DNA of 64,000 bases from the NCBI GenBank assembly GCA_029204225.1, contig CM055095.1, forward strand, positions 24,778,003 to 24,842,002, in the 5' to 3' direction. The notes beneath the pieces were generated by a model. That model ran no database searches. It saw nothing but the letters and a program-made list of their open reading frames with translations, and had not been told where the DNA came from. A program made the position numbers and the translations under genes. This document shows, in pieces, positions 3,541-59,833 of the stretch (its first letter is position 1; every line of letters begins with the position of its first letter). This stretch comes from Diphasiastrum complanatum. Taxonomy: Eukaryota; Streptophyta; Lycopodiopsida; Lycopodiales; Lycopodiaceae.

Positions 3541-3544
3541 TTGA

Positions 3545-3850
3545 GATGAAAGTGGTGCCGGAACCACTCTCAAATCACCTCTTACAATAATTGGGCCATT
3601 TTCAAATCACCTCTTACAATGATTGGACCATTTTGATACACCTGTTGCTCTTATTGGTCCGCATGGTCAAATGACATTATGAGGTACATAAACCTCTCTC
3701 TACTATCATGCCAAGTATAAGCAACCTACACTAACTCGAACTAATCTAAATCATAATTTGGCAAAATCACATATTTACAAGTGTACACGTGGAGTGTATG
3801 TGGCCTAGCACCCCCAAAACTCAAGATAAATAACTTTTACATTTTCCACA
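3545..3850 (-). mobile_element. Partial 3' LTR of Copia C2
   Basis: This ends in CA at 3850 and is followed by CTCCTTAAAA, the reverse complement of a decayed polypurine tract. It then leads into the Copia C-terminal coding sequence. Its distal part (blocks such as ATTGGACCATT) resembles the LTR at 23092-23861. The start of the LTR is lost at the junction with MITE copy A. Confidence 0.6.
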
Positions 3851-3855
3851 CTCCT

Positions 3856-4389: not shown

Positions 4390-4390
4390 G

Positions 4391-5070: not shown

Positions 5071-6185
5071 TTTACTAGGCTTTTCTCTTACAAAATGATG
5101 TGCAACTTCAATGTGTTTGCTCCTTTGCATGAAAGATAGGATTGTTGGCAAGGGCTTGGGCCGAGATGTTGTCACATTTGATCAAAGGTAGATCTTCCTC
5201 CTTGGTGCATTTGAACTCCAACAATAATCTTTTGATCCAAAGCACCTCTTTTGTTGCTGTAGTAAGGGCCTTATAATCGGCCTCACATGATGATAGAGAA
5301 ATGGTATCTTTCTTTTTGGAAAGCCAAGATATGAGATTTCCTCCAAGCAATATAGTGTAAGCACTTGTGGATTTTTGGTCCACCTTGTCACTAGCAAAGT
5401 AGCCAAGTATAGATAGATCTTCACTTTTGTAGAGTAATCCATAATCATGTGTTGAATTATATACCTCAAAACTCTCTTGGCCGATTTCCAATGGTAGATC
5501 TTGGGATATTGAATGGATTGGCTTAGCTTGTGCACGCAATAGCTCAAATTGGGCCTAGTGATGGTCAACCAAATCAAGGAGCCAATAAGACTCCTAAAAA
5601 GGGTGATGTCCTTGAAGGATCTTTCATCATCGTTAATAGGATCTTTTACAATATGCTCCATAGGTCTGTCTATGCTCATACAATTCTCCATATGAAACTT
5701 TTTCAACATTGATAGAGCATATCTATATTGACTTATAAAAGCATAATCATGACAAAGATCAATCGCTAGGGCCTAAAATGTAGCGTAGCTCTCCTAGATC
5801 TTGCATTTTGAACTCACTACCAAGTGCATGTTTAGTCTCTTCTACTAACTTTATGCAACTTCCATATAGGATGATGTCATCTACTTAAATGATTAGAATG
5901 ACAAGATCACTAGCAACAAACTTTAAGTACATGGAAGGATCATACATGATCTTGGGGCTTGCTTAAGCCCATATAAACTTTTTAATAGTAGGCAAACTTC
6001 GGATTCTTCATCATGCTTGATGAAGCCTTGTGGTTGCTCCATATAAATCTCCTCCTCAAGGTATCCATTAAGAAAAGCATTGGAGACATCCAATTGGAAC
6101 ATTTTCCACCTGAAGTAGCAAGCAATAGAGATTATGATCCTTATAGTTACCATCTTTGCAACGGGTGCAAAAGAGAAACTTTGAT
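5071..6185 (-). pseudogene. Copia C3: reverse transcriptase and RNase H remnants
   Basis: On the minus strand, going leftwards, there is FAPVAKMVTIR, then FQLDVSNAFLNGYLEEEIYM and SLYGLKQAPRS, the N-terminal reverse-transcriptase motifs (6219-5923). Next come GSLIWLTITRPNLSYCVHKL (about 5600) and RNase H motifs SSCEADYKAL and KCDNISAQAL (5300-5110). Frames change repeatedly and the YVDD region is broken. Integrase and gag are missing. The 5' end is cut at about 6185, where a different Copia family begins. Confidence 0.85.
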
Positions 6186-6526
6186 CAGTCAAATTTTTAA
6201 AATTTTGATTCTGATTCATCTATATACATCTCTTGCTGCCTTGAAGGTTTACCATGAGTAAGTGTACATGTACTTATATTGTCACAGGCTAGGTCTTTTG
6301 GCCTTCTTCCTTTTGTAAGAGTTCGAGTTTTGAGTTTGAACAAGAATAAAAATGTTTCGAGTTTGAGTTTCGAGTTTCGGGATACTTTCGAGTTTCACGA
6401 TAGTTTTGAGTTTCGCGATAGTTTCGAGTTTTGTGATAGTTTTGAGTTTGAGTTTCTCAGCCTTTGTCAATTAGACTGTGCACTTTGTTGGTAGAACTGA
6501 GATTTGTCTGTTGAGATGTTTTACAG
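6186..6526 (-). mobile_element. Probable 3' LTR remnant of Copia C4 with an 18-bp minisatellite
   Basis: This lies directly downstream of the C4 RNase H end. At about 6380-6452 it holds four copies of a degenerate 18-bp unit of the type GATAGTTTTGAGTTTCGC. LTR termini are not clear, so the LTR assignment rests on position only; the repeat itself is seen directly. Confidence 0.45.
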
Positions 6527-10144: not shown

Positions 10145-11056
10145 TTGAGATTGCATTTTTGGTGCCAAAATTCTACAAAGAAATAAATAGGTCCTTTATC
10201 TTTCATACGAAAGTCGTTAGATCTTTGCCGTCCCATTGTAGGTAAGTCAATATAAGAGAGCCTCTTGGGCTCTGATATCTCTCTCTCAAGGATCTTCTTG
10301 GTGAGAATACATGAGGATGCTCCTCCTCAAACCTCGTACATAAACTTTGAGCTTCAGGAAATAATCAAACACCATGGATTTTGAAGATAGAAGATACAAC
10401 CATGTAAATCTTGTGTAGTCATCAATAAAGGTGGCAAAACAAGTGGTTCCTCCCTTGCTTTGCATGATGAGAGATGCACATTCGAGTGCAAAAACTCCAA
10501 AGGATGTGAATTCTTGATAGAAAGATCTTGGATATGGCTTCTTATGTGACTTGGAAATCACACAAGCTTCACATGGCTTGATCTCCTTGGATAGTGTCTT
10601 TGGCAAGTCAATAGCTTTGACTTCTTTGACCATAGAATGCACAGATTTGTAGTTGGGATGGCCCAATCTTCTATGCCATAATTCTTCTCTGGAAAGCTTG
10701 GTCACATATGCAATATCACAAGAGTTTGCACACTCTCTTGGATCCAATTTGTAGATGCCTCCAAATCGAGATCCACAAGCAAGATTCTCATCATCTTTCT
10801 TGATTACACAAGTGTCAATATGAAATTTGACATCCAGGCCATTATCAAGCAATTGGCCAACACTTATAAGGTTCTTTGTGAACTTTGGAACAAATAGCAC
10901 ATTATCAAAAGATAGAACTTTTGACGATGCAACCTTCAAGAGAATACTCCCTACTCCTTCAAATTTCCATCCACAATCATTTGTAGTGTATATAGATTTC
11001 TTGACTTCTTCATAAGGTATAAGAGAAGAAAAAGAGTCCTTAGGGCTACACATTAT
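10145..11056 (-). pseudogene. Copia C5: protease-integrase fragment
   Basis: The minus-strand frame contains the post-protease motif NVLFVPKFTKNLISVGQLL, the pre-integrase motif EELWHRRLGHPNYKSV, CEACVISKSHKKP and integrase TFIDDYTRFTWLYLLSSKS. It then jumps directly to the linker that normally follows the integrase (SEPKRLSY-like near 10250), so the integrase catalytic core has been deleted. It is closest to C6 (23862-27003). On the right it joins the H3-Ulp1 element abruptly at about 11056, within the protease coding region. Confidence 0.85.
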
Positions 11057-11072
11057 GATTTTGAAATATGTA

Positions 11073-11330
11073 GCACATACTAAGAGATCATACAACATTT
11101 TTTGCAAATAAATATGGAAGCTTGAGTGTATGGTCATCACAAGGGATGGAGAAGTCACACTGACAAGCACGAGCAGCATTTCATCAAAATACACAACATG
11201 GAGGAACCAATGAAAAATGAAACTACATTTGTCAATTGTTATTGTTTCAGTGGTTCTACAACAGAGTTCAGATTTGACATATAACAAAGTCCACAGAATA
11301 CAACAAGTTTAGAAAAGCATCCAAGTTCAT
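11073..11330 (+). pseudogene. Last exon of the transposase-like gene Tnp, copy 1
   Basis: This matches the exon at 20426-20700 in copy 2, which encodes the conserved block YGSLSVWSSQEMEKSHWQAR followed by HGGTNEK. In copy 1 the Trp of the SHW motif is a TGA stop, a G-to-A change. A TATGTAG acceptor-like site precedes it, where copy 2 has TATGCAG. The upstream exons are missing. Confidence 0.6.
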
Positions 11331-11488
11331 ACAGGAAGAGAAAGTTAGATGAGATTGTTGAGTAGAAGATCATCATTGTCATCAAATCATGACATGTTCA
11401 GAATCGCTTTGCAAATTCATTAAACAAGAGAGGAGAAAAACTCAAAGTAAATGTATTGATTGTATTATAACAAAATACAAAGTGTCAA

Positions 11489-12970
11489 CTATTCATCATC
11501 AGATTTTGTGTCAGATTCTATGGCAATATTATCATGAAGAAATTCTTTGCTAGCGTATGCATCTAATAGATGTGCATTATTCTTATTTTCACTAAGCTCA
11601 ATATAAGTGGAATACAATGAATAATGGGATCTCCTTAAAAGAACATTCCCATCAGTAAAACCTAAAATGTTCAAAACATAAGATCTTTTGACAAAAATGA
11701 TCTTATTTGTCTTAACAAATTTATGTCCTCCTAGGTAAAATGTTAAAGCTTTAACTGCCATTATAAGACTCTCCCCAACTGGCCTCAGCTTGGAATGAGC
11801 AATACAGATCTCATTGTTCAAGAAATGCCTAAGATAGTGGCCAAGTCCACTATCCCTCTGGAACGAGGATGCGTGTTGTCTGAAACCACCTCGTCTCATA
11901 GCAAAATCATCAATTATGAGAGCATCCTGCAATAGGAAATATGTTAGCAAAAACACATTCAGTGATTAAAAACATTCTAATGCAAGGAAGTCAGCAGCAA
12001 CCAGATCAGGATGATTAATATAATGACCATGTATTGAAGTGGAGTCATCAGTGAAATGCATTAATGATGGACGAGGGAAGCCCATCTAGGATCGAAATGC
12101 CGTGAATTCTTCATCGGATGGTCTGCCTCGTCCATCCTCAGCTGTATTTGATAAAGGCTTAGTCAGACATTCTTCACTGGTCATAAGTCCCTCCTCATCA
12201 TCAAAATCAATACCAGCAACAAGGTCATCTGTTTCAAAATCTACAAAGTCAGATAATTCGAAAATTGTGCCGGATAATAAACATAGAACCTCGTCTTCAC
12301 GATAGTCAAAAAATTTACATAAATCCGCAGTAGTAAAATATACATGGTCATTAATATAATATACAGGCAAATTGAAAAGACATTTAGACTCCTCTAAAGA
12401 GTTGGATTCATCAGCAGATGTATTTTGGCCAATAAAAGAATTTCGGAGAACATTAGTATTTAAAGTCATTTTCCTTATCAGGAGTGTCGATAAGAAAGTG
12501 ATTGATATCCTTAATAGCTGACTGAAAAGAGGATGATGCAAAAGGAGGGTTAGCAACAGAAACTTCCTCATCATCTGGGATCTGAACTAACAGGAAAAGT
12601 ATGAAACCACTGTGATATTCAACCAATCGACATTTCTTGTTGCAATAAGGACACATTGAACTGCTTTTGAAAAAATCAAACAATTTGGTGAACATTCTAT
12701 CCAGTCTATGTTTGAAAGTTGGGGGAAATGAACAAGATCAGTATAATGCATGTACTGGAGTGAACCTATGGAGAAAACATGCTTACTAAGTATATCTCTG
12801 AATCTAACATAATGTTCATAAAATACGTCAGAATTTGGTTGTGTAGTCCTGAAAACATGTAGATATGGTCTAAATAGGTTGTGGAAGTAGTCTAGATTTT
12901 CAGTAATCCCAAATTCAGTAAAAAATGAACTCAAGCTTGAATCTCATGAGGATCTTGAGGAAGAGGCCAT
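11489..12970 (-). pseudogene. Gene B, copy 1 (unknown protein, multi-exon)
   Basis: I do not recognise this family. On the minus strand a start at 12970 (MASSSRSS) is followed by a TGA that reads CGA (Arg) in copy 2, then SSFFTEFGITENLDYF, FYEHYVRFRDILS and YMHYTDLVHF. A one-base indel relative to copy 2 follows. Next is a Cys cluster CPYCNKKC near 12650, a possible zinc site. The middle part contains VYYINDHVYFTTADLCKFFD and an acidic stretch (FDDEEGLMTSEE). The C-terminal exon (11918-11489), after an intron with good splice sites, encodes HYLRHFLNNEICIAHSKL and LGGHKFVKTNKIIFVKRS and ends SDTKSDDE. It faces away from H3-Ulp1 and shares its promoter region. About 87% protein identity to copy 2 in the last exon suggests it was under constraint. 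Confidence 0.6.
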
Positions 12971-13767
12971 GGAAGTAACGTAGATATCGCACTTGTGCGC
13001 GAGGGAGAACTGAAACAAAACTAACTCTGAAGATCGCGCACAAGAGGGATATGTACGACAGGTAGATCTCGAATATCGCACTTGTGCGCAAGTAGGTATA
13101 GTTGCATACAACTAGACAACAATGTGCGCGCACAAGAGCGATATGCCGTCAATTTTGAGAACGAAAAAGGTAAAACATTAATCGGATTTTGTGCCATTTA
13201 TACTAAATTTTCATACGTGTGTGATCAATAGCCAAAGGACACGTGTCTACTTTCAATTGGACTACAGGCACTGGCACGTGTGAGGTGACACCTGGACACG
13301 TGTCTCATGTTCATTTGTCGGATTGACAACACGTGTCTCTCTCGCAATGGCCGTAGAACTCCCACACGTGTAAAGTGACAGGGTGACACGTGTTGCTCTC
13401 GCATTTGTCCATACAACTCCCACACGTGTGACAAGACGTTCTTTCGCACGTGTAAAATCACAAACTTCAATGAATTTTTTTCACTTTTTTTTTCTCCGCA
13501 TATCGCACTTGTGCGCGTCCTTCACAATCGATATTCCTCCTACCGCCTTCCATGCGCACAGGTCCGATACATCTATCTACATGTCTTCCCATATCGCACT
13601 TGTGCGTCTTTCTTCTAAACTAAGCGCTCTCTCTTATACTCGGCTTGCACAGGTCCGATATACCATAGATTCTGTCCGTACATATCGGTCCTATGCGAGA
13701 TCTTTATCATCCTTTCCTGCTCTTCGTAGCCGTAACACACAAGTCCGCTATCCCATAGTACACGTCC
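12971..13767. promoter_or_regulatory. Divergent control region between gene B and H3-Ulp1, packed with palindromic motifs
   Basis: Nine forms of the palindromic motif ATATCGCACTTGTGCGC, in both orientations, lie near 12984, 13036, 13073, 13126, 13500, 13553, 13591, 13646 and 13736. Between them, from 13210 to 13455, there are about nine CACGTG/ACGTGT boxes (for example CACACGTGTGAC). Both motif classes recur in the equivalent region of copy 2. The position between two divergent genes suggests a shared bidirectional promoter or a binding array for an element-encoded or host factor. Confidence 0.65.
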
Positions 13768-15515
13768 ATGGATAGGAGAAGGCAGACAAGGAGGGACTTC
13801 TTCTCTGCTGGCTCATCCTTAGCTCCTGCAGTTGCCACTACACCTCCCGCTAGACCTAGAATGTGCAACCACATCAGGTGGCTCTATGAGATACGCAAGT
13901 ATCAGAGATCAACTGCTTTGTTGATTCCAAGAGCTCCATTCTACCGTGCTGTCCGAAACATAACAAGAAATGATCTCGGACAGCTGGTTAGATTCACACC
14001 CAATGCTCTTGAGTGCCTTCAAAAGGTTGCTAAAGATTACATGAGTCTTTTTTTTGAAGATTCTTTTTTGCTTGCAATCCATTCCAAGAGGGTCACCATA
14101 ATGCCCAAGGATTTTCAGCTCCTGATGAGAATGAGGGATAGGTTTTGCAGGTTACACGTATCTCAGCCTGCTGCTCCCAGACCAACTCCTCTAGATAGAA
14201 CTGATTTTCCTACGAAGCATCCTAGGAAGCAGGCAGCCCCCAAGAGAGCTCCGAAGAAAGTAAGGAGGCTAGACACCACAGATTCTGTGAAGCCTAACCC
14301 GGAATCAATTGTAGATAATGCTGCTGTTGATATTGTTGTAAATATAGCTACATCTGTTCTGGATACCCCTTAATTCCTATAGATACTACACATCCACCTC
14401 ATCCTCCTCCTCCAAATTTTTATACATGTATAGATTCGGATGATTATCTTAAATTTGAGAAAGACATATCCAATGCTATATATACAATTGGTACTCCTTT
14501 TTGTTTTAGACTAGATGAACTTGATTTTAGTATAAATTATAGAGCTCTTGATTGTTTGCATCTCAAAGACAGACGAGCATCTATCAGTGATCTTGTGATA
14601 GAGTCTGGGCTTACACTCTTGCAATATGACATTGCAAGAGATTCATCCAGTTAGTTGGTGCTGAGTAACTTTTTGCTTCAGGCCTTCAAGGAGAATAATG
14701 ACACATTGTCTGACTAGTGGATTCACACCAGCAACAAAATATCTGCTCATCCCTTATCATACCAAGTAAGATATATTAAATGCTTCTTGTTGTTTAATGC
14801 TTTATCATTGACATTGTCAATTGAAATAGTTCAGAATTGCAGCTAAAGAAAGTTCAATCTTATTTTGCAGTGACCACTGGAGTTTAAATCTGATCTCTTT
14901 TAAGAGATCTGTAGATAATACTACTAAAGGTTTTTGGGTCAAGATGAATTCGACGAGCAATATGCATAAGGATGTAGATATATACCTTTCTTATTTAAGT
15001 AAATATATTCCTATAGATGTTCCCCATTCCGTGGACTGGCAAATCGTCAATTTGGAAGTAAATTTTGTCTTTCTTAATAACATTTTTAAATCAGTATTCT
15101 AATGTATTTGTTTCATTCTAATTCATTTTGTTTCATAATTGATTTCTTGTGTGTTGAATTTTATTGCAGTCACCCCAACAAAATGATTCATTTAGCTGTG
15201 GATGGTATACATTATACAATGTCAAGTTATTTTTTGAGTGGTTTAACCTTCAGAAAGTTGTTGATATTAAGGTGATTAATTTTGTTTATTCTTATTTTTG
15301 GAATCATGATTAGTTTTTTATTTTGTTGATGTTTTTAGCCATTACTAATACATGAATGTTCTATCTTGCAGTTTACACTTCCTGAGTACACATCAAGCCA
15401 GGTGTACAGATTTAGACAAGAAATTATCTAGCGTATAGTGGCTAGGGCAAGGCTTCAGCCTCCCGTTATTGATGATGGTGCAAAGGATGATGTAGTTATA
15501 CTAAATCAAGATTAG
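13768..15515 (+). pseudogene. CENH3-like histone H3 fold fused to a Ulp1/C48 SUMO protease (copy 1, inactivated)
   Basis: Residues 1-34 are an Arg-rich tail with no canonical H3 tail. Residues 35-125 are a histone H3 fold: EIRKYQRSTALLIP, APFYRAVRNIT, RFTPNALECLQ, FEDSFLLAIHSKRVTIMPKDF. The LLIP, VRNIT, TPNAL and KDF variants, and a loop 1 one residue longer than in H3, are features of CENH3. At 150-163 a K-x-PRKQ-x-A-x-K pattern copies H3 residues 14-27, but after the fold. A one-base frameshift near 14370 separates this from the continuing frame, which encodes a C48 protease: HWSLNLISF (catalytic His), KMNSTSNMH (expected Asp is Asn), QQNDSFSCGWY (Gln and catalytic Cys). Exons are about 13768-14765, 14871-15057, 15170-15271 and 15372-15515; exon 2 is one base out of phase with exon 1. 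Three in-frame stops are all TAG. The fold and protease are clear; that they form one protein is inferred from continuity. Confidence 0.8.
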
Positions 15516-15829
15516 AACAAATACAGATAGCATAGAACAAGAATACATGTATAGAATTCATAGATAAATATACATTGATATATCAAATGCTGCTCCATTT
15601 TATGAATTTGGGATCACAAAATACATGTTTTGATCCCCACTTGGGCTTTCATTTATTGAATGAAAGAGTGTATACACAAATTTTTACTAAAGTTTATTTG
15701 CAACTATTGTTCTCCCACAATGGTGATTGTTGTAGGTAGATCTTTGCAGCACGTTATCAACTCCTGTCTTTTCTGCATCTGTGACATGACAAATATTAGT
15801 GAATGTGCAATTGTAAATAATGACATTTT

Positions 15830-17075
15830 CAATTATTTTGTTCTATTTTGAAATGGCAATAAACATAAAGTACTTACGAGTCTTCCGTTGATGATAAATC
15901 TGAAATATGTTGGTAGATTCGTTTGTAATAGCATGAGCTCTATTCTGATAAAATCAAGCTTCCAATGCTCTTCCACCTCAACCATAGTCAAATATTTCTC
16001 ATTGTAGATAATGCTTATCTCCATTCGGTTTGTGTGACCATTTAGTTCAAAGTCTTGATCCAGTGGTAGCCATGTACCTTCAATTTTCTTGTATCTCTAG
16101 TAGCTAAATGTGAGACTGAGCATATGCTTTTCGATATGATAATGAAAGATCATTGAAGACGTTTTAATCCTGCATTCTATGTCATTATTTGTTTTACTAT
16201 CCCAGCCTTGATCCATCAGATCTGACAAAGTCTCATCTGATAAATTCTTGCAAACAAACAAAGTCGGTGTCCTACGAACACTAGCACTCGAGAAAAAATC
16301 AGAATACATGTAATGAGATAAACCAACTTTTTTGAGTCTGTGCTTATCTTCATAGCATTTCTAATATCAATGAGTAGCTTGCATCTCAAGGATTCGGAAA
16401 CAATACTCTCAGGAGTAGGCCACTCATCACATTGAAAACTAGGAAATGGAATTGCTTCGAGCTTGCCAAAATCTCCATCTGTTTGTGGCATATAAAGATT
16501 CATAAAAATAGATACCACAATCTGCAAGTTCCTTTGGACTTCTTCCTCTGTATTGCAGCTTTCCAACATCAGAGTGAATGACGTCTAATATTCCTACAAG
16601 TGATTGTGCAGGCTCCCATTCACTTATGCATGATGGATATAAATCTGAAAGAAAAAAACAATGTTGAGGCATTTAAATCATAATCTGAAGAGCATCAATA
16701 AAGAAAATCACCTATGATGGCTGTCGAGTGCATATGTTTTGATATACTTACAATTACATTTTTGATGATCATGAGGATTGATATCATGTACTTTGATCTC
16801 TGAATGCATATATACATGTTGTATTAAGACTTCTGATATCGACTGACCTCCCAGGGTAAACTTAAATTCCAAATTTTTTGCTTTTCAATAAGATTTGTAA
16901 GCCATTTTTGCTCTTTTCTTTTGTTAAAAATTGCCGTTTGATGATGGATGCAGCAATACCCATGAATTCTTCGTATATTTTGTTGGCTTTCAGTTATCAG
17001 CTTCATCTTTCTCATTGTAAAGAATCACAAACTCAACTGTAAATTTTGGTCTCCTTGCCATTGCTATTTTCAAGG
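15830..17075 (-). pseudogene. Gene D, copy 1 (unknown protein, multi-exon)
   Basis: I do not recognise this family. The minus strand starts near 17061 (MARRPKFTVEFVILYNEKDE) and runs through VYMHSEIKVHDINPHDHQK to a GTAAGT donor near 16750. After an intron ending in TTTCAG it encodes PSCISEWEPAQSLVGILD, KLQYRGRSPKELADCGIYF and IPFPSFQCDEWPTPESI. Further exons give TPTLFVCKNLSDETLSDLMD (16250) and EVEEHWKLDFIRIELMLL (15950). Stops interrupt the first exon, and a two-base deletion relative to copy 2 (27150) shifts frame. It lies tail to tail with H3-Ulp1. Confidence 0.5.
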
Positions 17076-17399
17076 CTTGGGCGCCAAAAATCTCTCTGAT
17101 ATGATACTCAATTCAATTTTTTGTATCACATTTAATCTAATGTGAATGCCAACATAGTCACAATTACTGCGTATATCATATTTTATGTAACTGTACATAT
17201 TGTATTTCTATAATTGTAACTAGTATAGTTAGAAAATTTCATTATACTAACCAGCATAGTTAGGTAAATTTAACTTGAGGTATTGACGTCGAACAGATTA
17301 GCACGTGTCGGGCAAGAAGAAGAAACCAATGGGATACGTCCATGCTACCTAGACACAAATTTCAAAGTTTTCTATATTGTATTTTTATTTCTCAATTAA

Positions 17400-17547
17400 T
17401 TTGAACTACGTAGATTTCAAATATGTGCATTTAGAGTGGGCCTGGTGACGGTCAAAACTAAAGAAAAAAAATAAAGGTATCTTTACAAAGGGTCTTTTTG
17501 ATATTGAGAACTCCTCAGAGGAGTTCTCAATATCAAAAAGACCCTTT
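17400..17547 (+). mobile_element. MITE-like copy B ending in a perfect 30-bp inverted duplication
   Basis: The part up to 17516 matches the reverse complement of the left half of the 31772-32138 element (ACGTAGATTTCAAAT block, then AAAGGGTCTTTTTG and the terminus GAACTCCTC). The last 30 bases (17487-17516) are repeated as an exact inverted copy at 17518-17547, separated by one base. Transcribed, this would form a very stable hairpin. The rest of the element is missing. Confidence 0.75.
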
Positions 17548-17954
17548 AAGGAATGCCATGTAGGATATAGAGAAATATCAAAATAAAAAAAAATAGTATT
17601 GTTTATTTGCTTGCCCCCACCACTCTTGAGGCCTCCACAACTCCCAATGATCTAACCATAGTGTCTATAGTCATAGTTAAGAACTGTTAACAATTTGCAG
17701 TATAACTTGACTAAATTCAGAAATAGTTCCTCCATTGGTTACAAAAAGGGCAATATTTCACTGGATCTAAAATATGACCGCCATCCCCAAATTCGAATCA
17801 GGAAAAATTGCAAAATGTTTACATATGCATTCCTTCCATGAGAATGGAAATATGGGTGCAATCTCCAATTATGAATGCCATCATCACTTTGGAATGGAAA
17901 TATGAGCGCCAACTACCTATTGGAATGAAAAAATGACCGGCATTTCCAAATTTC
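17548..17954. other. Spacer between element copies 1 and 2
   Basis: No gene is visible. From 17700 to 17950 a loose motif of the type GGAATGGAAATATGAGCGCC recurs four or five times with variation (near 17770, 17840, 17892, 17921), often followed by an AATTTCCAAAT-like block. This may be a subterminal repeat of the transposon, but the copies are too degenerate for confidence. Confidence 0.4.
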
Positions 17955-20700
17955 AATCAAGCATATAAGCATGGAGATTGGATTGATTGTACATAGTATA
18001 TAATATAATCAAAGATGAGTATTTTGTTTTGCTTCACAGAATCTGGTCATAGTACTTTGATGCAACTGATTACTCTATTATTTTTTTGATGATGACATTG
18101 TATCATCTACATGTGGATATCCCTATTGATTTGGTACCTTTGTAGAGAAGAGGAGGCAAAAGAATTCAAATATCTGCTGAGGATTGTTCTCGTTACAGGG
18201 CAGAAGGAAAAAAAAACTTGGATTTGTGGAGAGATGGAACATTATATCCACAAGATCCAAGCACTTTGACACATCCCACATTCTCTTCAACAACTCATTT
18301 AGTTACATGGATATGCAATGGGAATAGTGGATTACTAGGATATTGAGAAAGATTGCAGAACCATGGAAAACAACTTTATATAAATAAAGTTCACTTTTTA
18401 GAAGGTGAGTTAATTCGGATATCTTCTTATTGTCAGAATAGAGATTGTCATCTCCAAAAGACATTAGAAAAAAATGAACAACTTAAAAAAAATAATGAAT
18501 CATCACAGAAGATAACAATCAATATCAAATCAGAACTAGAGCAAATGCAATCAGTCTTACAGTCTATTCGTATTGAAAACTTACAATTATTGAAGGAGGT
18601 GGATTTGGCAAAGAAGAAGGTTGAAAGTAAGAAGCGAATGCGACAAAGTTGCAAGGATATTCAAACGCTTTCAAAAGGAGGTTATCGAAATAGAAGGATC
18701 CGTGCATTCAAGTAAGCATATTCTGATTTTTGTAAGTTTTTCAATGACATTTGGATTTAATGTAAGCTATGGTGATATTCTGTTAACTATCTGTTTCTTT
18801 TGCAGATCTGCATTAGTAGCTCCTCGGAATATTAAAGACAATGCTTCACTAGGAATGTCATTGGGCACAATATTGACTTGCAAATCCACTGAGCGTATCA
18901 TGATGAACAATAGGATTTCAAATGTAAAGTGTAAAATAGCAGAGTCTTTGATGGTGGACGTTCAATTTTTTTTAGATAAGACTATAGTTAAGGGTGCTTG
19001 TGATTTTGCAAGTATTAGCAGGGAAGCATATGCAACAATATTTAAACTAATTAGAGAAGCTTTTAAGCAAGTTCAAATTAGAAAAGTCCCAATCCCTAGG
19101 ACATATCACTTGAAGAAAGAGAGAAATACATTAAACATAGGTATGCATAAGATCACTAGAACTCCATTTCATATTGAGGAGGTGTATGAAACTGATGGAA
19201 GATCGATATTCTATAATTAATCAAACAATTTATTTGCTGATTTAAATTACTTGCTGAGATACATCGTCACATTCTATGACATAACCTATGAAAAGGTGAA
19301 TGGCAAAATAATCATAGTACTTAAGGTAGATGAGTCAAAAATGGTAGAAAGGGTAGAAGATGAAGAGGGTTAGTATAACTCTCATGAATGGTGCTCTATC
19401 ACAAACATAGAACTAAGAAGATTTGGCAGCATTTCAGGTAACTAGCCTCATTATTACATTACATTCATTGAATAGTATTAATACATTGTAAACTAAGTCT
19501 TGTCAATTCTTTGGACAAGTGCTGAAAGAGGATCATGATATATTATCATGGATATTCTCAAGGACATCTTATCCTAGGATCATCAAGGACCATATGGATG
19601 GAGGACTTCTCAATGTTCCAGGAGTTGAAGACTTCAATGTTGAATGGCACTTAGCAGGTGATTTAAAAACATCGAAATATATGTATAATGTCTCTCACGG
19701 TGCTACATCAAAACACCCTTGTTTGTACTGCATGAAAATGGCAAAAGATGTAACTAGGAGTACAAAGATTACTAGAGAATATGCAGATCCAAACTGGAAG
19801 CCTGTGCTGCCTATCCCCTTGAAAAATGTGCATGTTTGCACTCTTCATGCATAAGTTAGATCAATAGAAAAGATCATTTATCTTCATATAGTTTTTGCTT
19901 GGAATACTAAGCCGACATCATTAGCAAAGGAAGCTATCTCTCGATTAGAAGATGTTTTATGAAAAGCAGGACTCCATAAAGGACATGTCAAAATTCAAAA
20001 AGATGAAAAGCTTTCAGGAAAGAATGGGAACATGCCAACTAAGCCAAGCATAGGAGGAGCAAAAGCACGTCGTTTCCTATCAAATCATATTGGTAAGGCT
20101 TCTAATATTCAACACTCAATCTGGACAAATATTATTGCTGCCACTCAGGACTTCGAGAAAGACGGCAAAACCAGAGTACTAAAAGTTGATGTATGAAAAA
20201 GGCTTGATAGTATGATTGCTATTTTAAGAAAAGATAAATACTTTGATATTGATAAGAAAGCTGTCCAAAGGACTTGTGTCGAGTTTGTTAATGCAGTATC
20301 AAAAGCATGGGGAGAAGATCACATCACTCATTACACGGTTAGTATAAAATTTTCAAAATGCTTTCAATTTTTCATATATATTTAGATCCAAACATAAGAC
20401 TAACATCATGATTTTGACATATGCAGCACATACTAAGAGATCATACAACATTTTTTGCAAATACATATGGAAGCTTGAGTGTATGGTCATCACAAGAGAT
20501 GGAGAAGTCACACTGGCAAGCACGAGCAACATTTCATCGAAATACACAACATGGAGGAACCAATGAAAAACGAAACTTCATTTGTCAATTGTTTCAGTGG
20601 TTCTACCGCAGAGTTCAGATTCGACATATAACAAAGTCCACACAATACAACAAGTTTAGAAAGGCATGCATGTTCAGAATTGCTTTGCAAATTCATTGAA
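17955..20700 (+). pseudogene. Tnp, copy 2: putative DDE-type transposase-like protein, decayed
   Basis: The N-terminal part (18150-18715) has REEEAKEF-like sequence and a coiled coil (LEGELIRISSYCQNRDCHL, then a Lys/Glu-rich heptad region to 18710). After an intron, 18806-19440 encodes GMSLGTILTCKSTERIMMNN, YHLKKERNTLNIGMHKIT and FYDITYEKVNGKIIIVLKVDES. The next exon (19519-20340) holds WHLAGDLKTSKYMYNVSHGA, HPCLYCMKMAKD (CxxC), VHVCTLHA and IQKDEKLSGKNGNMPTKPS. The last exon (20426-20700) has YGSLSVWSSQEMEKSHWQAR. Conserved Asp/Glu residues with a CxxC and C..H pair fit a transposase catalytic domain, but I cannot name the superfamily. Four or more stops (for example at about 19218, 19852, 19960 and 20195), absent from copy 3 where comparable, inactivate it. 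Confidence 0.6.
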
Positions 20701-20764
20701 CAAGAGAGGAGAAATACTCAATGTAAATGTATTGATTGTATTATAACAAAATACAAAGTGTCAA

Positions 20765-22498
20765 CTATTCATCATCAGATCTTGTGTCAGATTCTATGGC
20801 AGTATTGTCATGAAGAAATTCTCTGCTAGCGTATGCATCTAATAGATGTGCATTATCCTTATTTCCACTAAGCTCAATATAAGTGGAATACAATGAATAA
20901 TGGGGGCTCCTTAAAGGAACATTCCCATCAATAAAACCTAAAATGTTCAAAACATAAGATCTTTTGACAAAAATGATCTTATTTTTCTTGACAAATTTAT
21001 GTCCTCCTAGGTCAAATGATAAAGCTTTAACTGCCATTATAAGACTCTCTCCAACTGGGCTCAGCTTGGAATGAGCAATACAGATCTCATTCTTCAGGAA
21101 ATGCCTAAGATAGTGGCCAAGTCCACTATCCCTCTGGAACGAGGATGCGTGTTGTTTGACACCACCTCGTCTCGCAACAATATCATCAATTATGAGAGCA
21201 TCCTGCAATAGAAAATATGCTAGCAAAAACACATTCAGTGATTAAAAACATTCTAATGCAAGAAAGTTTAAACACTTACACATTTTTCATCATCAGCAGC
21301 AACCAGATCAGGATGATCGATATAATGACCACGTACTGAAGTGGAATCATCAGTGATATGCATTAATGATGGACGAGGGAAGCCCATCTGGGATTGAAAT
21401 GCCGTGAATTCTTCATCGGATGGTCTGCCTCGCCCATCCTCAGCTATATTTGATAAAGTCTTAGTCAGGCATTCTTCACCGGTCATAAGTCCCTCCTCAT
21501 CATCAAAATCAATACTAGCCACAAGGTCATCTGTTTTAAAATCTACAAAGTCGGAGAATTCAAAAATTGTGCTGGATAATAAACATAGAACCTCGTCTTC
21601 ACGATAGTCAAAAAATTTACATAAATTAGCAGTAGTAAAATATACATTGTCATTAATATAATATACAGGCAAATTGAAAAGACATTTAGACTCCTTTAAA
21701 GGGTTGGATTCATCAGCAGATGTATTTTGGCCAATAAAAGAATCTCGGAGAACATCAGTATTTAAAGTCACTTTTCTTATCAGGAGTGTCGATAAGAAAG
21801 TGACTGATATCCTTAATAGCTGACTGAACATAGGATGATGCAAAAGGAAAGTCAGCAACAGAAACTTCCTCATCATCTGAGATCTGAACTAATAGGAAAA
21901 GTACCAAACCACTCTAATATTCAGCCAATCGACATTTCTTGTTGCAATAAGGATACGTTGAACTGCTTTTGAAAAGATCAAACAATTTGCTGAACATTCT
22001 ATCCAGTCTATGTCTGAAAGCTAGGAAGAAATGAACAAGATCAGTATAATGCATGTACTGGAGTGAACCTATGGAGAAAATAGGCTTACTAAGTGTATCT
22101 TTGAATCGAACATAGTGTTCATAAAATACGTCAGAATTTGGTTGTGCAGTCATGAAAACATGTAGATATGGCCTGAATAGGCTGTGGAAGTAGTCTAGAT
22201 TTTCAGTAATCCCAAATTCAGTAAAAAATGAACTCAAGCCAGAATCTCGTGAGGATCCTGAGGAAGAAAAGTAACGTACATATCGCACTTGTGCACGAGG
22301 GAGAACTGAAACAAAACTAACTCTCAAGATCGCACACAAGTGCACAAGAGGGATATGTACAGGTAGATCCCAAATATCGCACTTGTGCGCAAGTAGGTAT
22401 AGTTGCATACAAACGGACAACAATGCACGTGCACAAGTGCGATATGCCATCATTTTCGAGAACGAAAAAGGTAAAAAATTAATCGGGTTTCGTGCCAT
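20765..22498 (-). pseudogene. Gene B, copy 2
   Basis: This is the same unknown protein as at 11489-12970. Here the N-terminal exon is continuous from SSFFTEFGITENLDYFHSLF through YMHYTDLVHFFLAFRHRLDR to YPYCNKKCRLAEY, where TAG replaces the copy 1 sequence. The middle exon (21876-21288) runs to HPDLVAADDEKC and ends at a donor (GTAAGTGTTT). An 80-base intron ending TTGCAG leads to the C-terminal exon (21208-20765) ending SDTRSDDE. In both copies the segment ending DTPDK...DFKY and the next segment (beginning MTLNT in copy 1) are in different frames, related by +1; this may hide an intron, a shared old frameshift, or a real +1 shift. Confidence 0.6.
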
Positions 22499-23091
22499 TT
22501 ATACTAAATTTTCACACGTGTGTGGTCAACAGTCAAAGGACATGTGTCTACTTTCAATTGGACTACAGGCATTGGCACGTGTGAGGTGACACCTGGACAC
22601 GTGTCTCGTGTTCATGCGTCGGATCGACAACACGTGTCGCTCACACAATGGCCCGTAAAACTCTCACACGTGTAAAGTGACAAGGTGACAGATGTCGCTC
22701 TCGCATTTGTCCGTACAACTCCCACACATGTGACAGGACGTTCTTTCGCACGTGTAAAATCACAAACTTCAATGAATTTTTTTCACTTTTTTTTTTTCGC
22801 TCCGCATATCGCACTTGTGCTCGTCCTTCACAATCGATATTCCTCCTACCGCCTTCCATACGCACAGGTCCGATACATCTGCCTACATGTCTCCCCGTAT
22901 CGCACTTGTGCATCTTTCTTCTAAACTAATCGCTCTCTTATACTCGGCTCGCTCAGATCCGATAAATTGTACATTCTGTCCATAAAAATCGGTCCTCTGC
23001 GAGGTCTTTATCATCCTTCCCTGCTCTTCCTAGCCGTCACGCACAAGTCCGCTATCCCATAGTACACGTCCATGGATAGGAGAAAGCAGAC
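22499..23091 (+). promoter_or_regulatory. Divergent control region of copy 2 and first codons of H3-Ulp1
   Basis: This is equivalent to 12971-13790. CGCACTTGTGCGC-type palindromes occur near 22283, 22376, 22433, 22807 and 22896 (the first three upstream of 22499, inside the gene B side), with CACACGTGT boxes from 22510 to 22760. The H3-Ulp1 start codon is at 23072. After about seven codons matching copy 1 (MDRRKQT) the gene is interrupted by a Copia LTR at 23092, so copy 2 retains no histone fold. Confidence 0.65.
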
Positions 23092-23861
23092 TGTTGAATT
23101 TCACACGTGTGGATTGTCCACTACATGTACTTGTGATATCCTAAGGTGTGTAGATGCACCAAGATCAAGACTAGATTGAGATTCAAGATCTATCTTTGAT
23201 TCTATGGCAAAAACACACTACTACATGTATTCAATCACTTCCAACTTTCACTCACACGTGTGGGAAATATTCAAAAAATTATCTAAGTAAAAACAAGCTG
23301 CTCTCCTTGAGTAGAGAGAGAAAAAACATCACGAGCTCTCGAGTAGAGAGAGAAAAAACATCATGAGCTCTCGGGTAGAGAGAGAAAGCTAGAAATTCAA
23401 TAACTCACAAAATCCATGAAATCACCAAATCAATTAGATCCAAAATGAGGAGTACAATGATACTAGTAGATCCACGAGCTACCACTATGCTTAACTATGA
23501 TTGGACCATACTTTGTCACCTCTTGATCCTATTGGACCATTGATCCATGCACCTCTTAATTCTATTGGACTATATTCAAGCACACCTCAATTTTCTATTG
23601 GACCTCACAAGGTTCCACCTCTAAATCCTATTGGACCTCTTAGAATTCATCAAACAAAGGCATTACACTTGTCTACACTCTAATTGGCACGAGTTTAGCC
23701 TCTTACTCTATTTTGGCTCAATAGTGGCATTACAAGTGGAAATGCATAATTTGCCATCTATGCCAAATTTGTTCCTATCAACATCCTACACCTAGATGCT
23801 TGATGTAAAAAACATAAGACCCCTATATCTAACATAGATAATCATTTTCAATTCTTCACAC
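23092..23861 (-). mobile_element. 3' LTR of Copia C6
   Basis: The 770-bp LTR starts TGTTGAATTTCACACGTGTG and ends TTCTTCACA. On the right it is followed by CTCCTCCTA, the reverse complement of the polypurine tract. A CACGTG palindrome lies ten bases inside. The motif TAGAGAGAGAAAAAACATCA is repeated near 23310 and 23341. It inserted into the beginning of the H3-Ulp1 gene of element copy 2. No matching 5' LTR of this family exists on the right side. Confidence 0.85.
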
Positions 23862-26800
23862 TCCTCCTAAAAAATTATCTATGAAGATTTGAGCATTGAT
23901 CTTGATATAACTCCAAGATTAGATCTATGCTTGATGAAAGCACTTTTGCTCAAAGGCTTGGTGAGTAGATCGGCAATACAAGAGGACGAGTTGACATGTT
24001 CCAAATAGATTTCTCCTCCAATAAGCTTTTCTCTCACAAAATGGTGTGCCACTTCTATGTGCTTGCTTCTTGCATGAAATATGGGATTATTGGCAAGAGC
24101 TTGGGCCAACATGTTATCACACTTGATCATTGGTAGATCATCTTCCTTGATGCACTTTAGCTCCATTAGTAACCTCTTGATCCAAAGCACCTCTTTGGTA
24201 GTTGTAGTGAGTGCTTTGTACTCGGCCTCACATGAAGAGAGAGATATAGTATCTTGCTTTTTGGAAAGCCAAGATATTAGATTGCCTCCAAGAAAGATAG
24301 TGTATGCACTAATAGACTTTCGATCCATCTTGTCACTTGCAAAGTCCGAATCCGAGTAGCCAACAATGGATAGATCTTCACTTTTATAGAGTAGACCATA
24401 ATTACAAGATGAAGATACATATCTTAGAATCCTCTTGGCCATCTTCCAATGATGGATCTTAGGATCTTGCATAAATTGACTAAATTTGTGCACACAAAAA
24501 CTTAGATCGGGCCTAGTAATGGTAAGCCAAATCAAGGAGCCTACAAGACTCCTAAAAAGTGTGATGTCCTCAAAGGATCTTTCATCACCTTTATTTCATA
24601 AAAATCAATTTCTAGGCCTAGGATGTAATGTATCTCTCCTAGATCTTGCATTTTAAACTCACATCCAAGTGCTAGCTTAGTTTCATCAACTAGCTTGATA
24701 CAACTTCCACAAAGAATAATGTCATCAACATAAACTAGAAGAATGACAATATTGCTATCAACAAACTTTAGATACATGGAAGGAACACTAAGAGTAAATC
24801 CTAGTGAGATAAGAAAAGAATTAAGTCTTGAATACCATGATCTTGGTGCTTGCTTGAGTCCATAAAGACTTTTGAAGAGCAAGCACACTTTGGACTCATC
24901 CTTCATGAATCCTTGAGGTTGTTCCATATAGATCTCCTCCTCAAGATAACCATTTAGAAAAGCATTGGATACATCTAATTGGAACACCTTCCACTTGAAA
25001 AAACAAGCAAGAGAAATAAGAATTCTTATTGTCACCATCTTTGCAACGGGTGCAAAGGTCTCCTCATAATCAAGACCATGGATTTGAGCAAATCCTTTGG
25101 CACATAATCTTGCTTTATGCTTGTTGATGGTGCCATCATGATTGAACTTGATCCGAAATACCCACTTGCAACCAATCACATGCTTGTTGGATGGAGGATC
25201 CACAAGCTCCCAAGTATAGTTGGTGATCAATGCATCATACTCTTGCTTCATGGCATCATACCACTCCTTGGTATTGAGTGCCTCTTGTACATTCTTTGGC
25301 TCTTCATGAGAGACATAAAAAACATAATTAGTGGAATCAAGATCCACTTGTTTGCCTTTGTCAACATATGAGAGCCTCTTAGGCTCGGATCTATCTCTCA
25401 TAGATCTTCTTGGTGAGAAAATCCGAGGAGAGTCTTCTTCAAATCTCGACCCCATCACATCATGATTGTCTTCAAAATCAATAATTGATGATGCATCCAT
25501 AGATTTCTTGATCTCGGCCTCTTCAAAAGATGAGTGTTGATCTTCATGAAAGACAACATCTCTACTTTCAATAACTTGAGAAGTAGAGAGTATAAAGACT
25601 CTATAGGCCTTCTTGGTGGATGAGTATCCAACCATGATCCCTTTGCATGCACTAGGATCTTCCTTCTTCCTTGTTCCCAAGGGAATATGGACAAAGCATA
25701 AGCATCCAAAAACTCTAAGGTGATCAACCTTAGGCTTCTTCAAAAATAAGATTTCATATGGTGACTTTCCTCCAAGAGCTATATGTGGGAGCCTATTGCA
25801 AAGATAATTTGCACAATTAATGGCTTCTCTCCAAAAATCTTTGGGCAAAGATGCCTCAATTCTCATAGATTTTGCACATTCACATAGAGATCTATTCTTT
25901 CTCTCGGCCACTCCATTTTGAGATGGAGAGTAGGCACAAGAAAACTCTCTTTTAATGCCTTCAAGCTCACAAAAATCTCCAGTTTTGCGATGACAAACAT
26001 GGGAGAGTCCATTTTGAGTGAAAGTAGCAAATTGGACGGGATTTCCAACTATGCTTGAATGAGAATTGCTTCTCTACATAAGCTTTGAAAATAAGAAAAT
26101 GATCAAACACTATAGATTTAGAAGCAAGAAGATATATCCAAGTGAATCTTGTGTAATCATCAATGAAAGTAACAAAACAAGTGGCTCCTCCCTTGCTTGT
26201 AGTTGATGAGAAATGCACATCCGAGTGGATTAACTCCAAAGGATGCTTGCTTTTGATAGAAGATCTTGTAAATGGCTTTTTGTGAGATTTAACAATAGCA
26301 CAAGCCTCACAAGGCTTGATCTTCTTGGAGAGTGACTTTGGCAAGCCAATAGCTTTGGCTTCTTTGATCATAGAGAGCATGGATTTGTAGTTGGGATGTC
26401 CCAACCTCCTATGCCATAATTCCTCCATAGAGAGCTTGTTCACAAGAGCAACATTACAAGCATTCACATACTCATTTGGATCTAGTTTATAGATGCCACC
26501 AAATCTAGATCCTAATGCAAGTATCTCATCATTCTTCTTGATAGTGCAAGTATCAACATTGAATTTTACATCAAGGCAAGCAATTGGCCAACACTAATAA
26601 GAATCTTGGTAAGCTTAGGTACATAAAGAACTTTAGAGAGAGAAAAAACTTTAGAAGATGCAAGCTTCAAGGGAATGTTCCCTATGCCTTCAATAGGACA
26701 TTCAAAATCATTTGCAGTGTATATTGATTTCTTGACTCCATCATAAGGTGCAATAGAAGAGAAAGAGTCCTTGGAGCTACACATATGTGAAGAGGCTCCA

Positions 26801-27003
26801 CTATCAATATACCATAGGCCGTCCTTCTTGAAAGGAGTAGATGAGAAACTAGAGACCATAAGAGATCCCTCTCCATCACTTGAAATAGTGTCTTCCTTCT
26901 CATTGGTAATGTTGGCTTGCTTGAGTTGATTCTTCTTCTTGAAGCAATTGGTGGCATAATGGCCTTTCTTGCCACAATAAAAGCACTTGATCTTCTTCTT
27001 CTC
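23862..27003 (-). pseudogene. Copia C6 polyprotein, 5' truncated at the gag zinc knuckle
   Basis: Reading leftwards: a CCHC knuckle KCFYCGKKGHYATNCFKK (about 26990), protease WYIDSGASSHMCSSKDSF (26820), pre-integrase LWHRRLGHPNYKSM, integrase TFIDDYTRFTWIYLLASKS (26150), AERKNRSLCECAKSMRIE (25900), reverse transcriptase FQLDVSNAFLNGYLEEEIYM and LVYVDDIILCGSC (24730), and RNase H SSCEAEYKAL and FHARSKHIEVAHHFVREK (24200-24050). A deletion between ILGLEID and the ITRPDL region removes part of the reverse transcriptase. The gag N-terminus and the 5' LTR are gone, and the sequence switches at 27003-27004 to gene D. Confidence 0.9.
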
Positions 27004-27741
27004 TTCATAGCATTTCTAATATCAATGAGTAGCTTGCATATCAAGGATTCAGAAACAATACTGTCAGGAGTAGGCCACTCATCACTTTGAAAACTAGGTA
27101 ATGGAATTGCTTCGAGCTTGCCAAAACCTCCATCTGTTTGTGGCGTATATAAAGATTCATAAAAATAGATACCACAATCTGCAAGTTCCTTTGGACGTCT
27201 TCCTCTGTATTGCAGCTTTCCAACATCAGAGTGAATTTACATCTAATATTCCTGCAAGTGATTGTGCGGGATCCCATTCACTTATGCATGATGGATATAA
27301 ATCTGAAAGAAAAAAACAATGTTGAAGCATTTAAATCATAATTTGAAGAGCATCAATAAAGAAAATCACCTATGATTGCTGTCGAGTGCATATGTTCTGA
27401 TATACTTACAATTACATTTTTGATGGTCATGAGGATTGATATCATGTACTTTGATTTCTGAATGCATATATACATGTTGTACTAAGACTTTTGATATCGA
27501 TTGACCTCTGGAGGTAGTCTTAAACTCCGAATTTTTTGCTGTCCAATAAGATTTGTAAGTCATTTTTGGCCTTTTCTTTTGTCGAAAATTGCCCTTTGAT
27601 GATGGATGCAGCAATACCCATGAATTCTTCGTATATTTTGTTGGCTTTCAGTTATCAGCTTCATCTTTCTCATTGTAAAGAATCATAGACTCGATTGTAG
27701 ATTTGCGTCTCCTTTCCATTGCTATTTTCAAAGCTTGGGTG
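27004..27741 (-). pseudogene. Gene D, copy 2 (5' part)
   Basis: This is homologous to 16340-17070. The first exon begins MERRRKSTIESMILYNEKDE near 27720 and is interrupted by one TGA. The frame RQKKRPKMTYKSYWTAKN is open here where copy 1 has stops. After the intron, ESLYTPQTDGGFGKLEAIP is in one frame, supporting this as the ancestral reading. It is bounded on the left by truncated Copia C6 and on the right, with no gap, by a retrotransposon primer-binding site at 27742. Confidence 0.55.
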
Positions 27742-29798: not shown

Positions 29799-31771
<1,973 letters not shown>

Positions 31772-40400: not shown

Positions 40401-40472
40401 ATTCACAACGTTAAGCATGCTATGATGACAATCCTAATCCTAGCATCCATCCTAATTTTCCATGATCAAGCT

Positions 40473-40596
<124 letters not shown>

Positions 40597-57379: not shown

Positions 57380-59785
57380 TAGCTAGTTATAAAAAAAATC
57401 AAGGTTGGATTCCGACGAATCTTGTAACGAGTGATGTGATCTTCTCCCCATGATTTTGATACTGCATTAACAAACTCGACACAAGTCCTTTGGATAGCTT
57501 TCTTATCAATATCAAAGTGTTTTTCTTTTCTTAAAATAACAATCATACTATCAAGCTTTTTCCATACATCAACTTTTAGTACTCTGGTTTTGTTGTCTTT
57601 CTCGAAGTCTTGAGTGGCAGCAATAATATCTGTCCAGACTGAGTGTTGAATATTAGAAGCCTTACCAATATGATTTGATAGGAAACGACATGCTTTTGCT
57701 CCTCCTATGCTTGGCTTAGTTGGCATGTTCCCATTCTTTCCTGAAAGCTTTTCATCTTTTTGAATTTTGACATGTCCTTTATGGAGTCCTGCTTTTGATA
57801 AAACATCTTCTAATCGAGAGATAGCTTCCTTTTCTAATGATGCTGGCTTAGTATTCCAAGAAAAAACTATATGAAAATAAATGATCTTTTCTATTAATCT
57901 AACTTCTGCATGAAGAGTGCAAACATGCACATTTTTCAAGGGGATAGGCAGCACAGGCTTCCAGTTTGGATCTGCATATTCTCTAGTAATTCCTGTACTC
58001 CTAGTTACATCTTTTGCCATTTTCATGCAGTACAAACAAGGGTGTTTTGATGTAGCACCGTGAGAGACATTTACATACATTTCAATGTTTTCAAATCACC
58101 TGCTAAGTGCCATTCAACATTGAAGTCTCCAACTCCTGAAACATTGAGAAGTCCTCCATCTATATGGTCCTTGATGATCCTAGGATAAGATGTCCTTGAG
58201 AATATCCATGATAATATATCATGATCCTCTTTCAGCACCTGTCCAAAGAATTAAGCAGACTTAGTTTACAATGTATTAATACTATTCAATGAATGAAAGA
58301 CTGCCAACCACCATATATCATTTTCTGACTGGACATTGAATCAAAAATCTTCTTGGTTCTCTGTTTGTGATAGAGCACCATTCATGAGAGTTATACTAAC
58401 CCTCTCCATCTTCTTCCCTTTCACAATTTCTGACTCATCTAACTTAAGTACTATGATTATTTTGCCATTCACCTTTTCATAGGTTATATCATAGAATGTG
58501 ACGATGTATCTCAACAAGTGATTTAGATCAACAAATAAATTGTTTGATGAATTATAGAATATCGATCTTACATCAGTTTCATACACCTCCTCAATATGAA
58601 ATGGAGTTCCAGTGATCTTATGCATACCTATGTTTAATGTATCCCTCTCTTTCTTCAAGTGATATGTCCTAGGGATTGAGACTTTTCTAATTAAAACTTG
58701 CTTAAAAGCTTCTCTAATTAGTTTAAATTTTGTTGCATATGCTTCCCTACTAATACCTGTAAAATCACAAGCACCCTGAACTATAGTCTTATCTAAATTT
58801 TTTTGAATGTCCACCATCAAAGACTCTGTTATTTTACACTTTACATTTGAAATCCTATTGTTCATTATGATATGCTCAGTGGATTTGCAAGTCAATATTG
58901 TGCCCAATGACATTCCTAGTGAAGCATTTCTTTAATATTCCGAGGAGCTACTAATGCAGATCTGCAAAAAAAAAATTAGATAGTTAACAGAATATCACCA
59001 TAGCTGAAATTAAATCCAAATGTCATTGAAAAACTTACAAAAATTAGAATATGCTTACTTGAATGCACGGATCCTTCTATTTCGATAACCTCCTTTTGAA
59101 AGCGTTTGAATATCCTTGTAACTTTGTCGCTTTCGCTTCTTACTTTCAGCCTTCTTCTTTGCCAAATCCACATCCTTCTATACAAATAGACTGTAAGACT
59201 GATTGCATTTGCTCTAGTTCTGATTTGATATTGATTGTTATCTTTTGTAATGATTCATTATTTTTTTTAGGTTGTTCATTTCTTCTAACGTCTTTTGGAG
59301 ATGACAATCTCTATTCTGACAATAAGAGGATATCCGAATTAACTCACCTTCTAAAAAGTAAACTTTATTCATATAAAGTTTTTTTCCATGGTTCTGCAAT
59401 CTTTCACAATATCCTAGTAATCCACTATGCCCATTGCATATCCATGTAACTAAATGAGTTATTGAAGAGAATGTGGGATGTGTCAAAGTGCTTGGATCTT
59501 GTGGATATAATGTTCCATCTATCCACAAATCCAAGTTTTTTTTTTCCTTCTGCCCTGTAACGAGAATGATCCTCAGCAGATCTTTGAATTCCTTTGCCTC
59601 CTCTTCTCTGCAAAGGTGCCAAATCAATAGGGATATCCACATGTAGATGATACAATGTCATCATCAAAAAAATAATAGAGTAATCAGTTGCATCAAAGTA
59701 CTATGACCAGATTCTATGAAGCAAAACAAAATACTCATCTTTGATTATATTATATACTATGTACGATCAATCCAATCTCGATGCT
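57380..59785 (-). pseudogene. Tnp, copy 3: transposase-like gene, inverted, 3' truncated
   Basis: This is a minus-strand copy of the gene at 17955-20345, with the same introns. It is better preserved in the catalytic part: 58913-58341 is open over 190 codons (GMSLGTILTCKSTE, FYDITYEKVNGKIIIVLKLD, ERVSITLMNGALSQTENQED). The segment 58080-57379 is open over 233 codons (HGATSKHPCLYCMKMAKDV, VHVCTLHAEVRLIEKIIYFH, IQKDEKLSGKNGNMPTKPS, RTCVEFVNAVSKSWGEDHIT). The N-terminal coiled-coil exon (59642-59238) is interrupted, and the exon at 58250-58130 is shifted. Homology to copy 2 stops exactly at the exon end (HITRYK), so the YGSLSVWSSQ exon is missing, as are genes B, H3-Ulp1 and D. Confidence 0.6.
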
Positions 59786-59833
59786 TGTATACTTGATTCA
59801 AATTTGGAAATGATCAGTACACAGAAACAATCC

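Follow-up and report, generated by a model that had tools for sequence, protein, structure and literature searches.

The DNA transposon at this locus is about 9 kb long and encodes a transposase, two further genes and an H3-type histone with CENH3-like features. The window, i.e. the whole 64-kb stretch of Diphasiastrum complanatum DNA that was analysed, holds two adjoining copies of it, elements A and B, and part of a third (Table 1). Complete copies form a single unit bounded by 35-bp terminal inverted repeats starting CATTAGAGG (left end CATTAGAGGAGTTCTCAATATCAAAAAGACCCTTT, right end the same in reverse), within which the transposase (+), gene X (-), the histone gene (+) and gene Y (-) follow each other from left to right. 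Element A corresponds to element positions 2929-7572 and 7574-9011 of 9016, at 87-92% identity to the full-length copy on contig C1. Its first third, comprising most of the transposase gene, is gone next to a Copia-like element, and about 480 bp have been inserted at 15621-16099. At the junction of the two elements (17486-17551), CTCCTC is joined to AGAGGAG, and the outer CATT/AATG of both ends is missing.

Table 1. Features of the transposon copies in the window (coordinates on the 64-kb stretch)
Feature	Position	Strand	Basis or remark
Element A, histone-bearing copy	11050..17516	+	alignment to full-length copy on C1
Last transposase exon, element A	11050..11240	+	HILRDH 11074-11091, SLSVWSSQGMEKSH 11119-11160
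Gene X, divergent from histone gene	11489..12970	-	
Intergenic region between divergent gene X and histone gene	13000..13767	.	repeated CACGTG and TATCGCACTTGTGCG
Histone ORF of element A	13768..14373	+	ATG 13768, stop 14371-14373, 201 codons
H3-like tail start MDRRRQTRRDFF	13768..13803	+	by-eye alignment to H3 tail
Histone fold, residues 39-124	13882..14139	+	Pfam and solved H3 chains
Ulp1/C48 protease-like region	14434..15435 (limits approximate)	+	split by putative introns (splice sites by eye)
Ulp1-like H motif DHWSL	14872-14886	+	catalytic-motif position
Ulp1-like KMNS, N replacing usual D	14941-14952	+	by eye
Ulp1-like Q and C motif PQQNDSFSCG	15173-15202	+	catalytic-motif position
Gene Y, degraded in element A	16100..17061	-	
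Right terminal inverted repeat, element A, abutting element B	17486..17516	.	
Element B	17517..27739	+	alignment to full-length copy
Left terminal inverted repeat, element B	17517..17547	.	
Left end and transposase gene, element B	17517-20676		
Transposase gene, damaged, element B	18347..20516	+	
Transposase motif VLKVDES	19317-19337	+	element B
Transposase motif HLAGDLK	19648-19668	+	element B
Transposase motif PCLYCM	19717-19734	+	element B
Transposase motif HVCTLH	19831-19848	+	element B
Transposase motif HILRDH	20427-20444	+	element B
Transposase motif SLSVWSSQEMEKSH	20472-20513	+	element B
Gene X, element B	20665-23091		
Copia-like stretch in element B	23092-26986		replaces lost histone-Ulp1 gene
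Gene Y, part, element B	26987-27739		
Third, partial copy: transposase gene fragment	57423..59812	-	

The fold claimed for the histone gene of element A in the preliminary description was recovered: the open reading frame is present, contains all three motifs quoted from it, and matches the Pfam Histone family (PF00125) over residues 26-123 well above background (E 1.4e-24, 87.2 bits against a cut-off of 26.4). The best solved-structure matches found with HMMER are H3 chains (E 3.5e-20), and with these two E values chance similarity is ruled out. The protein database gave 130 matches (120 listed), the best rows being H3-type histones with 50-57% identity across roughly half the query, and identity to host H3 is 52-53% over the fold. 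As judged from these matches, the window protein is a genuine but diverged H3-type histone. Canonical H3 carries ARKS at K9 and K27 and ends in RRIRGERA; the window protein has aspartate at K9 and no ARKS, and its fold ends in LMRMRDRF. The CENH3 hallmarks first read from the letters are likewise there: loop 1 has one extra residue relative to H3 in the HMMER alignment, helix 1 ends in IT, and LLIP and F-T-x-x-AL are present; KDF is a further CENH3-like motif. The fold also retains LAIHSKRVTIMPKD, which we take to be the H3-H3 and H4 contact region.

The tail had been described as unlike that of H3, which does not hold for its start. Most copies begin with MDRRKQTRRDFF, which by eye resembles MARTKQTARKS, while MDRRRQTRRDFF of the window copy has K changed to R in the H3 K4 segment. 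Across the first family, to which the window elements belong, the short tail aligned by eye keeps R2, K4, Q5, T6 and R8, with D in place of K9 and F in place of S10, and residues 1-13, MDRRKQTRRDFFS, are nearly invariant (14 aligned copies). Plant CENH3 tails are also devoid of K9, and thus the loss of this residue may stem from ancestry.

An H3-like beginning of the tail, with K9 replaced, is one of four features going beyond what had been noted before, the others being a fused Ulp1 domain, a RAG1/Transib-like transposase and further histone-bearing families. Ten copies of about 19 kb each were fetched, picked for the absence of stops and mostly also for long frames; the histone frame stays open over 340 residues in eight of these, over 341 in a ninth and over 264 in the last. 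In nine of the ten, the extended frame enters what appears to be an Ulp1/SUMO-protease-like domain, and the ORF in the window accounts for only part of the protein. In the window copy a frameshift at about 14331-14373 separates the histone from this part, and stops damage the Ulp1-like region. A read-through model of this copy matched Pfam Peptidase_C48 (E 3.8e-5, 24.1 bits against a cut-off of 20.7) and yeast Ulp1 (1euv, E 2.2e-4). By eye, N stands at the usual D position, so that catalysis by this domain is putative. No relative of the whole histone-Ulp1 fusion was found in the protein database, where the 8 matches, each spanning 19-27% of the query, probably cover the histone part. Thirteen metagenome histone sequences were considered as further transposon copies and rejected, as by eye they hold nothing Ulp1-like or transposon-like.

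The genome search with the window histone gave 7464 first-look candidates in 1.74 Gb. The best 150, ranked by similarity to the query, were scored, and all proved to be matches, with 76-100% identity across most of its length; they lie on every contig from C1 to C24, and 38 of them are intact in the sense of having no stop. The terminal repeat occurs, with up to 3 mismatches, at 1154 and 1224 sites genome-wide, while the same pattern read backwards occurs at 0. The approximately 9-kb copies with terminal repeats at many genomic sites bear out the repeated, mobile unit that had been proposed, and the many dispersed copies rule out a host CENH3 pseudogene at a single locus. The fetched copies C23a and C23b share 98% identity over 10.7 kb and do not count as independent; 3090 positions of C23a are N.

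The histone fold is held by selection while the adjoining parts drift. Sixteen copies were offered for the estimation of dN/dS and 14 aligned (L002 and L006 were dropped, L004 aligned partly), giving 0.20 for the fold (bootstrap 0.13-0.30), 0.62 for the linker behind it (0.39-1.02), 0.51 for the tail (0.26-1.09) and 0.41 for the first Ulp1 exon (0.26-0.66). The set is biased towards protein-like copies, a choice which lowers dN overall and affects the contrast of neighbouring parts less. The low value of the fold next to higher neighbours indicates that the element has multiplied by way of copies with a working histone.

The transposase of the window appears to be RAG1/Transib-like, its fold being taken from a relative whose structural model shows the RAG1-type RNase H fold, and would thus resemble the enzyme that shuffles antibody genes. 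Element B holds D-D-E, CxxC and HxxxxH in RAG1 order, and E and HxxxxH are also present in P0128 and P0129; the RAG1 counterparts of these motifs are presumed rather than derived from a tool alignment. The ends of the element begin with CA, as in RAG1/RAG-like and Transib systems. On the other side of the comparison, the end motif of RAG/Transib is CACWRTG and that of the element is CATTAGAGG, RAG2 was not recognised, and the window element carries a histone. Sequence-level matches are absent too: PDB profile matches up to E 10 include neither RAG1 nor Transib chains, and Pfam gives no RAG1 or Transib family for nine transposase relatives. Nor does Pfam give an integrase family for the transposase pieces or the nine relatives, although such an absence does not argue against one. 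No transposase relative was confirmed in viral and prokaryote contigs.

Target duplications were absent at the two insertions comparable to related uninterrupted sequence (2/2 empty sites), one of which shows three extra bases on the left; at a third insertion the flanks do not match, and by eye no 5-mer is shared at C1, C3 and C8a. One insertion lies in sequence read as Copia integrase. Transib elements typically produce 5-bp target duplications, according to PMC4411706, a feature which is thus missing at the three sites of this small sample. Ginger1 and some Mutator-like elements are also DNA transposons with an Ulp1 domain, as described in PMC2836005; in Ginger1, however, Ulp1 is joined to the transposase, whereas here it is joined to the histone in a separate gene. 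The transposase fold probably differs as well: Ginger1 has a Gypsy-type integrase, and the modelled relative of the window transposase matches RAG1/Transib.

Gene X has no Pfam match and a predicted structure with a mean pLDDT of only 39.6, and its stretch VYYINDHVYFTTADLCKFFDYREDEVL faintly recalls, in our reading, KilA-N/Bro-N domains. Ten ORF pieces from genes X and Y, the transposase and the ORF behind the histone were searched against Pfam and none came near a curated cut-off; the window as a whole gave 0 Rfam and 0 tRNA matches. Palindromic TATCGCACTTGTGCG and CACGTGT repeats lie between the divergent genes at 12985-13610 and 22375-22810, and are candidate regulatory sites or possible binding sites of element proteins.

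The best 150 matches to P0006, which we read as moss CENH3, include 13 host H3 genes, followed by a second repeat family, in which the H3 fold forms the C-terminus of a long proline-rich protein. Its start is readable in two loci (MSEEMARTKQTARDPR and MSEEMARTKQMARDPR), and both copies have D at K9. This family was seen on C11, C19, C13, C16 and others (L042-L050), starting MARTKQTARD where read. A gene X relative adjoins its histone by eye (L042, L045, L048), and no Ulp1-like stretch was found in three 3.3-kb loci. Its dN/dS is 0.58 (0.29-1.21), from 9 copies too alike to show selection. With the transposase relative P0129 as query, 51 transposase loci were scored and compared with 178 typed histone places (C6:51178982 left out); 23 have a listed histone match within 8 kb, some being likely duplicated loci, e.g. 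C1:98252741 and C1:98321710. In 22 of the 23 pairs the distance is 2.3-3.2 kb (0.08 pairs expected). According to the listed strands, the two genes of 22 pairs point towards each other, whereas in the first family both lie on one strand; one of the 23 histones was read (L046), the others being assigned by match score and orientation. The pairing of a RAG1-fold transposase with an H3-type histone is therefore recurrent, with another gene order, in the second family.

A third family, at C1:91752655, C3:51755851, C2:79881529 and others (L051, L057-L061), has at least 150 dispersed matches and frames of up to 448 residues. Its H3 fold, with LLIPRAPFY and RW (VRW), is closer to CENH3, its tail is MARTKQTALPKS in the one copy read, and its dN/dS is 0.19 (0.10-0.33; five copies aligned of 6, L051 unaligned). 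A transposase was sought in this family and not found.

In a tree of the fold (26 sequences, 96 columns), the canonical H3 clade (97/98) excludes every element histone. The element histones and five CENH3 or CENH3-like rows (moss, Arabidopsis, rice, Micractinium and one unnamed) form one side of a branch with support of 70/89, which is not strong, and the three element families come together at 68/83. Joining the element histones with H3 is disfavoured, though not rejected (AU p 0.066). In an earlier tree of 31 rows, tails included, the second family sits on a very long branch and most forks are open. Four reference sequences did not come from a database, and others owe their CENH3 label to our reading; P0006, P0010 and P0018 are hypothetical or unnamed proteins which we take to be CENH3. 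The description of the histone as CENH3-like has moderate support. The element histones likely descend from a CENH3-like histone, as far as these alignments tell. The host CENH3 was searched for with a piece of P0006 and not found, the five exon-like matches that were read (L052-L056) looking like H3. Longer loop 1, LLIP, IT, F/W-T-x-x-AL and KDF are hallmarks shared with plant CENH3/CENP-A, as are the tail without K9 and the position outside the H3 clade. In contrast to CENH3/CENP-A, the element histone is transposon-borne, present in very many copies, fused to a protease-like domain and extended at the C-terminus.

Taken together, these data suggest that some genome parasites may make their own chromatin parts. 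The reading that we tentatively favour, with a probability of roughly 0.45, is that the element escapes silencing by means of its own H3-type histone and Ulp1-like domain. The fusion protein would pair with host H4 and enter nucleosomes or H3-H4-like complexes on element DNA. As the tail retains the K4 segment, with K9 replaced by aspartate and an ARKS site lacking at K27, such nucleosomes presumably could not take H3K9 methylation, and the linked protease might remove SUMO from factors of silencing or repair. The element would probably benefit by being protected from silencing, and so stay transcribed and accessible to its transposase. RAG-type recombinases act with the K4 segment of the H3 tail, and a more specific version, in which element nucleosomes both mark the element ends for its own recombinase and are unsilenceable through K9, is unlikely.

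The main rival is an architectural or guiding role in the transposition complex, in which the histone, with host H4 or alone, would bend or bridge the element ends and the K4 tail would recruit or orient the transposase. This role, which we regard as improbable, would agree with the linkage of the histone to a RAG1-like transposase in two families, with the constraint on the fold and with the near invariance of the first 13 tail residues, and H3K4me3 is what recruits RAG2. Nevertheless, RAG1 and Transib transposases are not known to require an element histone, Pfam showed no PHD or other H3-tail reader in the scanned pieces of X, Y and the transposase, and the Ulp1 fusion would be left unexplained.

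Placement in centromeric chromatin, the role proposed in the preliminary description, is not supported. The 89 of the 150 scored places that lie on the 15 contigs of known length could be mapped, and 39 of them fall in the best 5-Mb interval of the respective contig, where 32.7 were expected (P 0.007); the remaining 50 lie outside it. The copies are only mildly clustered and not confined to one site per chromosome. Exact terminal repeats on C1 are dense at 64.9-66.7 Mb (15/80) and 95-100.7 Mb (27/80), among the matches listed, and these patches may represent centromeres, heterochromatin or an assembly mis-join. Targeting of the element, or of its product, to centromeres by the histone would fit this mild clustering, the patches on C1, the CENH3-like loop 1, LLIP, IT and KDF and the position outside H3, but the copies spread nearly uniformly along the chromosomes. 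This spread is weak evidence either way, and we hold such targeting to be distinctly unlikely.

To our knowledge, histones are normally host genes, found outside hosts only in some viruses. Bracovirus H4 and the H3-like singlets of NCLDV are core histones of parasites that likely enter host nucleosomes, according to PMC9145170, whereas the histone described here belongs to a chromosomal DNA transposon and is far more diverged from that of its host. By analogy with bracovirus H4, and with the contact region LAIHSKRVTIMPKD kept in the fold, the element histone could take H4 and chaperones away from host H3 or CENH3, or poison host nucleosomes, to the benefit of the element; selection would, however, act against such a high copy number if the host were harmed, and such interference is very doubtful. 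A mere passenger, i.e. a host CENH3 or H3 gene that was captured, multiplied together with the transposon and has no function for it, is hardly credible: transposons often capture host gene pieces, but the fold is far more constrained than the sequence beside it (0.20 vs 0.62), the second family keeps the pairing, the third keeps the fold at 0.19, the fusion to the protease-like domain is in frame, and 38 of the 150 scored copies are without stops.

No report of a transposon-encoded core histone emerged from searches of the open-licence PMC literature. The linked RAG1-fold transposase and H3-type histone allow a direct test of silencing escape by own chromatin, and histone-bearing elements bear on the fast divergence of CENH3. 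If element-made nucleosomes exist, centromere-type histones would also be selfish genes, which may pass between transposons and hosts. Furthermore, a plant branch with new cargo would join the recombinase fold that lies behind vertebrate V(D)J recombination.

Other repeats share the window with these elements. Direct-repeat pairs at 43179-49039 (100% over 653 bp) and 33733-38965 (97.6% over 862 bp) look like the LTRs of recent retrotransposons, and the former encloses a 1330-codon frame resembling the other Copia-like stretches of the window. Long GA microsatellites occur at 30286-30950, 40417-40950, 59791-60026 and 63033-63227, one of them where the third element fragment ends.
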